Shown in pieces: positions 61,539-64,000 of a DNA stretch of 64,000 nt (its first letter is position 1; each line of letters opens with the position of its first letter). Origin of the DNA: an uncultured Acholeplasmatales bacterium (GTDB lineage Bacteria; Bacillota_I; Bacilli_A; Acholeplasmatales; Anaeroplasmataceae); NCBI GenBank assembly GCA_944324795.1, contig CALUXR010000006.1, forward strand, positions 1 to 64,000. Reading direction: 5' to 3'. Below the pieces are notes generated by a model. The model saw only the letters and a list, made by a program, of their open reading frames with translations, did not search any database and was not told the origin of the DNA. The translations under genes and the position numbers were made by a program.

Positions 61539-62384
61539 TTAATTTGTTTCTACTAAATTATATTTTTTTAAATAATAATAATTTATTACTGATTGACGAA
61601 GTAGCCATTTAATTTCTGCTACATCTCCTTCTGGGTAATTATTATGCCAATTTAATTTATAATCCCATAAACCATTATTATTTATTGTATTTATTAAATT
61701 ATCAAGTGTTCTATCTAATAATTCTTTATTACAACTTAAAAAATCATTAATTTCTAAAATATTAAATATATCTAATTTTGTTTCATCTAATTTTAAATCA
61801 TGATCTATATTACATTCATTTAAGCCTTTTATTAATATAGCTTTATAAATAATATTTTTATTATTTTCTTTATAATTATTAATTTCTAAATTATATTTAT
61901 TATATAAATTTAATGCTAATTTATAATAAGGATTATCTTCTTTTACAAGTAAAATAGTTAAACCAATTATACCCATTGTTAAAGATAAATCAATATCTTT
62001 TGGATATGTAAAATAATCAGCATGAGCAAAATTATTATTACTTGGTTCAGCTATTAAAAATAAATCATCTTTTCTTAAAGCTTTATGATATAAATATGTT
62101 AAAGCTTTTTTAATAATTAAATCTTCATCTTTATTATTAGTTCTAAACAAATAGATCAATTTTAAAGCATAATAAGTCACAAAAGCTGTTGAATTAGGAT
62201 TATAATTATCAATATATAAACTATGTCCAAATCCACCATCTTTATTTTGATACATTGTTAAACAAGGTAAAATAAAGTCCTTATTATCTAAATAATAACT
62301 CATTATTGCTACATCAATATCTTGACCTTTATTATAAATTTGTTGTTGTAATGAATTCTCTAAATCTATACTTAACTTTTTCAT
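61539..62384 (-). CDS. Alpha/alpha-toroid (prenyltransferase/terpene-cyclase-like) protein
   Basis: A 281-residue, mostly helical protein with QNKDGGFGHSLY (about 46-57), the QxxDGGFG motif of squalene-cyclase and prenyltransferase toroids, and a degenerate repeat later (NNNGLWDYKLNW). No catalytic DxDD or zinc motif is seen, so a cyclase activity is not supported; it may be a binding or scaffold protein. GAGGAAAAG precedes the ATG. It is divergent from the gene at 62446. Confidence 0.75.
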   Translation of the reverse strand: MKKLSIDLENSLQQQIYNKGQDIDVAIMSYYLDNKDFILPCLTMYQNKDGGFGHSLYIDNYNPNSTAFVTYYALKLIYLFRTNNKDEDLIIKKALTYLYHKALRKDDLFLIAEPSNNNFAHADYFTYPKDIDLSLTMGIIGLTILLVKEDNPYYKLALNLYNKYNLEINNYKENNKNIIYKAILIKGLNECNIDHDLKLDETKLDIFNILEINDFLSCNKELLDRTLDNLINTINNNGLWDYKLNWHNNYPEGDVAEIKWLLRQSVINYYYLKKYNLVETN

Positions 62385-62400: not shown

Positions 62401-62429
62401 TTGCAAATATATTTTCTTTTGCATATAAT
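62401..62429 (+). promoter_or_regulatory. Promoter of the 239-aa unknown gene
   Basis: TTGCAA (62401-62406) and TATAAT (62424-62429) are 17 bp apart. Transcription would begin about 62436, at the GGTGA box, 10 nt before the ATG. Confidence 0.65.
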
Positions 62430-62445
62430 TTTAATGGTGATTTCT

Positions 62446-63165
62446 ATGATATATCCTTTATTTTTATATCATTATTTTAAAGATATAACTGATAGAATAG
62501 ATCTTAAATACTTTTTAAATATAAAATTGAAAGATTATGAGCTATTTACAATCAATATCTTTAATTATGATTCATTTTATAATTTTTTTAATAAAAAAGA
62601 AAGCCTCAATGTCTTAAATAATTTTTCTGATAATTTCTTAGATAATATTATTTATATGGCTAATTTAACTAAAAATAATAATTATAATAAAGAAAATATA
62701 ATAATTCTTTATGCTTATCTTTGTTATATTGTTTTAATTAATAGTAAAATTAATATTTTAAATTTAACTAATTCTTATTATTTAAATAATAAAATAAATA
62801 AAGAAAAAGAATTTAATAAATTTAATTATAATTATTATAATTTTCGTCTAAATATTTATTTAAATTTAGACTTAATCGTTCGCCATATTTCAGCATATCC
62901 TGATATTAGAAGTTATTTAACTAAAGCTAGTTTAAATTGTTATAGATATTATAAATATATAAATAAATTAAATATATTTAAAATATTTAGTTTAAAATTA
63001 CTTAGTAAAATAACTAAAAAAACTTACTTATTTAATTCTAAATATATTGATTTAACTAATGAATATAATGAATTAATTAATAAAAGTTTAAATCTTATAG
63101 ATTGTATAAATGATTATCTTTATTATAATAATTTAAATAAATTAAAAGCTTTCTTTAATTCTTAA
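62446..63165 (+). CDS. Asn/Tyr/Leu-rich protein, unknown
   Basis: A 239-residue protein of very biased composition (Asn, Lys, Tyr, Ile, Leu). It opens MIYPLFLYHYF and has one central conserved-looking stretch, LIVRHISAYPDIRSYLTKASLN. The start at 62446 is chosen because GGTGA lies 5 nt upstream; an in-frame TTG at 62401 is the -35 box itself. Its 3' end overlaps the convergent yqeK-rsfS gene by 24 nt. No family recognised; the composition partly reflects the AT bias, so it may be diverged rather than novel. Confidence 0.65.
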   Translation: MIYPLFLYHYFKDITDRIDLKYFLNIKLKDYELFTINIFNYDSFYNFFNKKESLNVLNNFSDNFLDNIIYMANLTKNNNYNKENIIILYAYLCYIVLINSKINILNLTNSYYLNNKINKEKEFNKFNYNYYNFRLNIYLNLDLIVRHISAYPDIRSYLTKASLNCYRYYKYINKLNIFKIFSLKLLSKITKKTYLFNSKYIDLTNEYNELINKSLNLIDCINDYLYYNNLNKLKAFFNS

Positions 63166-64000
63166 ATTAGAATAAAGTTTATCAATATCTAGTCTATCAC
63201 GTTCTTCTTTAGTAAAAATTGATAAAATAACATTATTTAAATCAATTAAAAGCCAACTACTACCTTCACCTTCTGTACTCCTAATATTAAATGGAGTATC
63301 TATAATATAATCTTCTAAATATGATTTTATAGCTTCACTACTTCTTGTATTATTTATTGTAGAAATGATTATATAATCATAAAATGGTGAAGTTTCTTTA
63401 GTTTCATATATTTTAACTTCTTGTGCTCTAACTTTATTTAGAGCTTCTTTTATTATTAAAAGTAAATCATCTAACATTTTTTCTTTATAACAATTTAATA
63501 CTTCATATTGATAAGGGTGAATATTTTTACCTTCATTTAAAACAAAGTCAATAGTATGTTTAGTAGATTCATAAATAGCTGTATAGAATAAATCTCTTTC
63601 AACTAAACAGCGACATTTAATACAATCTTTATAAACACGTGACGGTTCTATATAATCACTTATTAAAATTATTTCTTGAAGTTTTGTCATATTAGGTTTG
63701 CCAAAAGTATGATATTTTATAGCTTCATAAATTTCTTTATCGTTACCAATAAGTTTTAAATAAGCTTCTGCAGAGGCAAAATTATGATATAAGATAGGAA
63801 ATTCTTCACATATTTTAATCTCTTCATCATCTAATAATTCGCTCATTTCATTAATATCTTCATAACGATAATAATCATGCATCAAGCCTGCTAAATAAGC
63901 CCTATCTTCATCTATTTCATATTTTTTAGCTAAAGATTTAGCAGTTTCAGCAACTCCCATAATATGGTTTAATCTTTTTTCATGAGGGGAATTTAAATAT
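63142..64000 (-). CDS. YqeK-RsfS fusion (HD phosphohydrolase plus ribosomal silencing factor), partial
   Basis: The gene runs off the right edge: the frame continues upstream of the ATG at 63960 with HEKRLNHIM, the typical YqeK opening. Numbering from that ATG, the first ~155 residues form an HD domain (LAGLMHDYYRY with the HD pair, YHNFASAEAY, YHTFGKP, ISDYIEPSR), as in YqeK hydrolases that cleave Ap4A. From about residue 160 to the end is an RsfS domain (LLLIIKEALNKVRAQEVKIYETKE, YDYIIISTINNTRSSEAIKSYLED, SSWLLIDLNNVILSIF). RsfS binds L14 and blocks 50S joining in starvation. The two are normally separate neighbouring genes; here no stop lies between them. Confidence 0.88.
   Translation of the reverse strand, partial: YLNSPHEKRLNHIMGVAETAKSLAKKYEIDEDRAYLAGLMHDYYRYEDINEMSELLDDEEIKICEEFPILYHNFASAEAYLKLIGNDKEIYEAIKYHTFGKPNMTKLQEIILISDYIEPSRVYKDCIKCRCLVERDLFYTAIYESTKHTIDFVLNEGKNIHPYQYEVLNCYKEKMLDDLLLIIKEALNKVRAQEVKIYETKETSPFYDYIIISTINNTRSSEAIKSYLEDYIIDTPFNIRSTEGEGSSWLLIDLNNVILSIFTKEERDRLDIDKLYSNLRIKESF

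Follow-up and report, generated by a model that had tools for sequence, protein, structure and literature searches.

The right-hand end of the window (the whole 64,000-nucleotide stretch of DNA analyzed here) carries, on the minus strand, the 3' part of a gene that encodes a YqeK-type hydrolase and the ribosomal silencing factor RsfS in one reading frame (Table 1). As the first-pass annotation had stated, no stop codon separates the two domains; the frame is open from the window edge across the domain junction to a TAA. The contig (74,862 bases) supplies the full gene, which begins with an ATG behind AGGAG and encodes 304 amino acids (aa), 285 of them within the window and the first 19 beyond it. 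The names YqeK and RsfS proposed in that annotation are confirmed by family models, all with scores above their cut-offs. Pfam gave HD (45 bits) and RsfS (PF02410, 60.6 bits; cut-off, 21.6) only, in the expected order and with no NadD domain in the chain, and the curated NCBIfam models were matched for YqeK (TIGR00488, 104.3 bits; cut-off, 70.15) and RsfS (TIGR00090, 60.5 bits; cut-off, 56.9). The genome (99.5% complete) has a single copy of each domain, both within the fusion gene.

Table 1. Features at and next to the yqeK-rsfS locus (window coordinates unless stated otherwise)
Feature	Position	Strand	Remarks
yqeK-rsfS fusion gene, 3' part	63142..64000	-	Open frame; start ATG at contig position 64056 with SD
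YqeK domain (HD-type Ap4A hydrolase)	63508..63984	-	TIGR00488, 2.7e-30; six ligands invariant
Junction helix, predicted continuous	63433..63516	-	AlphaFold2 model; full-length residues 181-208
In-frame ATG (Met194)	63475..63477	-	Site of the free rsfS start in relatives; duplex energy, -1.6
RsfS domain	63172..63453	-	PF02410, E = 3.5e-17
281-aa frame	61539..62384	-	No Pfam match; flanked by the fusion gene and a phosphoglycerate mutase-like gene
254-aa frame, putative	62401..63165	+	AT rich, from TTG; antisense overlap with the fusion gene at its 3' end

Upstream of the fusion gene lie a gene for a YqeH-type GTPase, with matches to 50S ribosome-binding GTPase and RsgA models, and a gene for a YqeG-like HAD protein. 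It is these genes that occupy the place to the right of the fusion gene where the first-pass annotation had expected nadD; the nadD of this genome was located on another contig (C4). With nadD elsewhere and yqeH upstream, the usual order nadD-yqeK-rsfS has become yqeH-yqeK-rsfS. The yqeH gene extends approximately 40 nucleotides (nt) into yqeK, in a different frame. Of the 89 loci examined, 87 yielded an upstream frame, and at 85 of these a YqeH-like frame immediately precedes yqeK; the same holds for 50/50 genomes of the family.

YqeK (COG1713) is a symmetrical Ap4A hydrolase that converts Ap4A into two ADP, and RsfS (also YbeB or iojap) binds the 50S subunit and blocks joining of the 30S subunit. 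The YqeK ligands H31, H60, D61, H91, H116, and D134 (full-protein numbering) are invariant in all 89 genomes compared, and the YqeK half shows the pattern H...HD...H...H...D of the dinuclear site of YqeK, an enzyme described as a homodimer (PMC8177086). An AlphaFold2 model of the 285 aa in the window, computed as a single chain from an alignment of 19 fused relatives (fused proteins only), reached a pLDDT of 94.9 and a pTM of 0.90. In this model, the last part of YqeK runs into the first part of RsfS as one predicted helix (residues 162 to 189 of the modeled piece, corresponding to full-length residues 181 to 208; pLDDT of ~95). Foldseek matched the YqeK half to 3ccg, 2ogi, 8wmy, and 2o08 and the RsfS half to 6sj6, 2id1, 2o5a, and 4wcw, with 50S-bound Staphylococcus aureus RsfS as the best; among the matches listed, no chain convincingly spans both halves. 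The first half thus resembles stand-alone YqeK (PDB 2o08, 3ccg, 2ogi, 8wmy, and 8jja) in fold and metal ligands, and the second resembles stand-alone RsfS and MALSU1 (PDB 6sj5, 6sj6, 2o5a, 4wcw, and 5ool) in fold and in its E, W, and D contact positions. Unlike the fusion, the former structures have no RsfS domain and the latter no hydrolase domain, and the equivalent of S. aureus Y98 is changed in the genus of the window (g1).

The fusion was sought in relatives, as the first-pass annotation had proposed, and the same frame is fused in all eight genomes of g1. Separate genes in close relatives together with a stop codon lost here would, according to that annotation, have refuted the fusion; the genus is, on the contrary, uniformly fused. 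The g1 proteins are 45 to 68% identical to that of the window and align without gaps at the junction (alignment of seven of the eight), and the length of the junction is equal in all eight genomes. Such divergence around a gapless junction indicates a single ancient fusion rather than a sequencing error. In the family as a whole, RsfS was matched in 51 of 55 genomes; the four without a match and G024, whose frame ends at the contig end (yqeK plus 40 RsfS positions), were dropped. G024 is probably fused but stands outside all counts. The 50 resolved genomes comprise 19 fused and 31 separate cases, with fusions in g1 (8/8), g2 (8/24), g3 (1/3), g4 (1/2), and g7 (1/1) and none in g5 (0/10) or g6 (0/2).

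Further candidates were drawn from the order (160 genomes) and the class (395 genomes), and those fetched were checked in the DNA; a draw from the phylum (295 genomes) listed members of the class only and so does not bear on other classes. One long HMM match was rejected as proof of fusion, as nine candidates (G004, G056, G059, G060, G062, G244, G230, G324, and G342) have a stop codon between the genes and were scored as separate. Fused genes outside the family were found in G067 and G075 (family f2), G143 and G144 (both f3 genomes examined), G408 (f9), G306 (f16), and ten genomes of f19, and at least 21 of the 395 genomes in the class draw are fused. No fusion was seen at the 23 distant loci (L124 to L146; Treponema, Clostridia, and others) of a 71-locus scan.

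A tree was calculated from the joined YqeK and RsfS alignments of 89 genomes (35 fused, 54 separate), namely, the 50 resolved family genomes and 39 others, many of which were picked because they looked fused; as this is not a random sample, 35/89 is no frequency. Fusion required 18 Fitch changes and formed 18 separate fused clades. Shuffled labels gave 20 to 33 changes (mean, 27.7), which indicates that inheritance and repeated change both shape the distribution of the trait. Fused and separate sisters were well supported for G067/G068 (1.0), G039/G038 (0.998), the G026 group (0.98), G028 (0.978), and G332/G338 (0.943) and poorly supported for the G185 group (0.15) and G014 (0.71). Counting gains only yields 18 origins, while cheap losses (at half the cost of a gain) allow fewer and even a fused ancestor.

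We put the probability at roughly 0.5 that this is a real, selected fusion whose rigid product hydrolyzes Ap4A at uL14 on the 50S subunit in a fixed 1:1 ratio with the block on subunit joining. A small frame change at an overlapping yqeK/rsfS junction would have joined the genes in the ancestor of g1, and the same joining would have been repeated elsewhere in the class. In the resulting rigid two-domain protein, RsfS at the C terminus would bind uL14 on a 50S subunit that is free or still maturing, and YqeK at the N terminus would hydrolyze Ap4A (or another NpnN) at that same subunit. With the domains joined, alarmone clearance and the joining block would come in a fixed ratio and at one address. 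This presumes that the hydrolase is active, that RsfS docks on uL14, and that selection favored co-location over mere co-production. Overall, we infer that Ap4A hydrolysis is functionally linked to the 50S subunit. The first-pass annotation had proposed that the fusion ties alarmone breakdown to ribosome hibernation, and such a tie may fairly be drawn from the intact ligands, the rigid modeled linkage, and the approximately 18 state changes. Such coupling need not be obligatory in every case, since roughly half of the fusion genes have a possible internal start that may yield free RsfS. Furthermore, the many relatives with separate genes show that fusion is not needed for function.

A serious, if tentative, alternative is that the fusion is real and has equal dosage or compaction as its sole effect, with two independent domains that do no joint work at the ribosome. 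YqeK and RsfS also work as separate proteins elsewhere, the genomes are small (0.9 to 2.5 Mb), and genome reduction by itself favors the joining of overlapping genes, which counts against our preferred reading. Among the 31 separate pairs in the family, 18 overlap by 4 nt (ATGA), 12 have another arrangement, and 1 has an in-frame stop. At an ATGA stop/start overlap, a one-base frame change is enough to join yqeK and rsfS, so that these 18 pairs are a single indel away from fusion. However, yqeH and yqeK, the single control pair used here, overlap or abut equally closely in another frame and are fused in 0/50 family genomes. The recurrence of the fusion on the tree and the modeled link, a predicted rigid helix and not a loose linker, likewise argue against compaction as the whole explanation.

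It is also possible that the gene has, or had, two outputs: the fusion protein and free RsfS translated from an internal ribosome-binding site, the second output having been lost in the window's gene. This can be true together with co-location of the hydrolase at the 50S subunit. The old rsfS start with an SD-like sequence (duplex energy of -7 or below) is retained in 19 of the 35 fused genes and 11 of the 18 fused clades, and no other window in any of those 19 genes scores as strongly as its junction site. Compared with synonymous shuffles using the codon usage of each gene, the clade medians combine to a p of 3.8e-5. For comparison, separate rsfS genes have a median duplex energy of -8.3, with ATG in 39/54. 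In g1, the site is kept in seven of eight genomes (-7.0 to -8.8), although six of those proteins are merely 45 to 68% identical to that of the window; retention over such long divergence suggests continued production of free RsfS by most members of the genus. However, a start codon at the junction is missing from nine of the 35 fused genes, and seven are intermediate, the window's gene among them. Alone in its genus, this gene has lost the site: its junction sequence is degraded (AAAGAAAAAATG), with a duplex energy of -1.6 that is no better than shuffles (p of 1.0), and this suggests that free RsfS is hardly made in the window's organism. Young fusions would keep the old site even without selection, and its survival there proves nothing. 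All duplex energies, moreover, depend on an assumed anti-SD tail.

An unlikely explanation is that the RsfS half is losing its silencing role in g1 and serves as a mere tether or tail for YqeK. The residues of S. aureus RsfS that contact uL14 are E70, W77, D81, and Y98 (PMC7125091, PMC9503621), and a Y98A change removed ~80% of the anti-association activity (PMC9503621). In the Y98 column, with the correspondence set by spacing with a one-residue gap and not from a structure, the window has Leu289; L, M, V, or I is found in all eight g1 genomes and in G038, G039, G045, and G049, while the rest of the family has F or Y. This replacement throughout the genus makes the strength of silencing uncertain and, as far as the alignment goes, counts against our preferred reading too. 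In addition, the PF02410 score of the window is the third lowest of the 51 family genomes with a match, one of the two lower scores being cut by a contig end. However, the domain is complete in all eight g1 genomes, and the window retains E262, W268, and D272, the equivalents of E70, W77, and D81, together with R286. Across the 89 genomes, Trp268, Asp272, and Arg286 occur in 89/89 and Glu262 occurs in 84/89. Residue 96 of uL14, which is reported to position RsfS Y98 (PMC9503621), has changed as well. Of 27 loci in which uL14 was sought, 24 could be read (3 did not fit the search pattern), and residue 96 is Ser in six of the eight g1 genomes; the remaining 18, including two of g1, have Thr. The six Ser96 genomes group together on the tree, and the uL14 change was therefore probably one event. 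Judged from these residues, the paired changes would fit an adapting contact, which also favors our preferred reading. An artefactual loss of a stop codon or a frameshift introduced during sequencing or assembly is rejected, as 8/8 g1 genomes from several assemblies share the fusion with the same junction length.

In most mycoplasmas, YqeK is fused to NadD (JCVISYN3A_0380), and an NAD-proofreading role has been proposed (PMC9426524). Here too, the YqeK HD domain has a fusion partner from its own conserved gene cluster; in contrast, the partner is a C-terminal RsfS, and nadD is elsewhere or absent. A NadD-YbeB (RsfS) fusion is listed for Wolinella succinogenes (PMC3223725), in which RsfS is likewise joined to a member of this cluster, the partner being NadD instead of YqeK. 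A further source (PMC5462765) mentions a NadD-YbeB fusion and notes that yqeK overlaps the ybe operon. Our searches of the open-access literature found no mention of a YqeK-RsfS fusion; it completes the triangle of pairwise fusions among NadD, YqeK, and RsfS.

YqeK is present in 31/31 good family genomes, and a full NadD match is missing in eight of them (G001, G007, G017, G022, G023, G024, G027, and G050). The retention of YqeK in these eight genomes points away from NadD proofreading as its sole function here. Weak NadD matches in the same genomes cover ~70 positions in a short frame and are probably another nucleotidyltransferase. Within g2, NadD was kept in 1/8 fused versus 9/16 separate genomes (Fisher p of 0.079); as these genomes are related, we do not claim a link between fusion and NadD loss.

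The repeated joining in relatives suggests that Ap4A breakdown and ribosome idling belong together. A fusion arising perhaps 18 times would be evidence of the "Rosetta stone" type that the Ap4A hydrolase and the 50S silencing factor work together, and a single protein is now offered for testing this link. It also separates YqeK from NadD, since YqeK stays beside RsfS also in genomes whose NadD is encoded elsewhere or missing, and it bears on the role of Ap4A in bacteria and on why yqeK adjoins ribosome genes. By the presence of the internal start, the genomes form a natural series that begins with two genes, passes through a gene with possibly two outputs, and ends with an obligate fusion. A wider proposal, which we regard as unlikely, is that the 50S subunit is the workplace of YqeK in general, with RsfS bringing the hydrolase to uL14 and most g1 members also making free RsfS from the internal start. 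If so, the arrangement would perhaps exist in other bacteria as a loose YqeK-RsfS complex, clearance of Ap4A (or of an NpnN RNA cap) at uL14 would be coupled to whether idle 50S subunits are released or retained, and translation could set how much silencing factor is tethered relative to how much is free.

Other fusions involving this gene cluster were observed in the same genomes. In G049 (L073:1489-2913), one protein combines NadD with a Nudix domain and a winged helix of the NrtR type (PF01467, PF00293, and PF21906), and its gene adjoins an NAD-synthase-like gene; from its domains, this protein looks like an NAD enzyme joined to its own regulator. The nadD frames of many g2 and g5 genomes (472 to 486 aa) were likened to that of G049 by frame length alone. 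In G039 (L072:1-2049), NadD is fused to a CN-hydrolase/NAD synthase (NadE-like) protein, and a similar fusion in G038 was judged from the frame length (813 aa). Finally, G324 and G342 (L177 and L180) have frames of 365 to 372 aa with YqeK in the second half, which by length only would be NadD-YqeK; their rsfS follows in the same frame as YqeK after one stop codon, one step short of a triple fusion.
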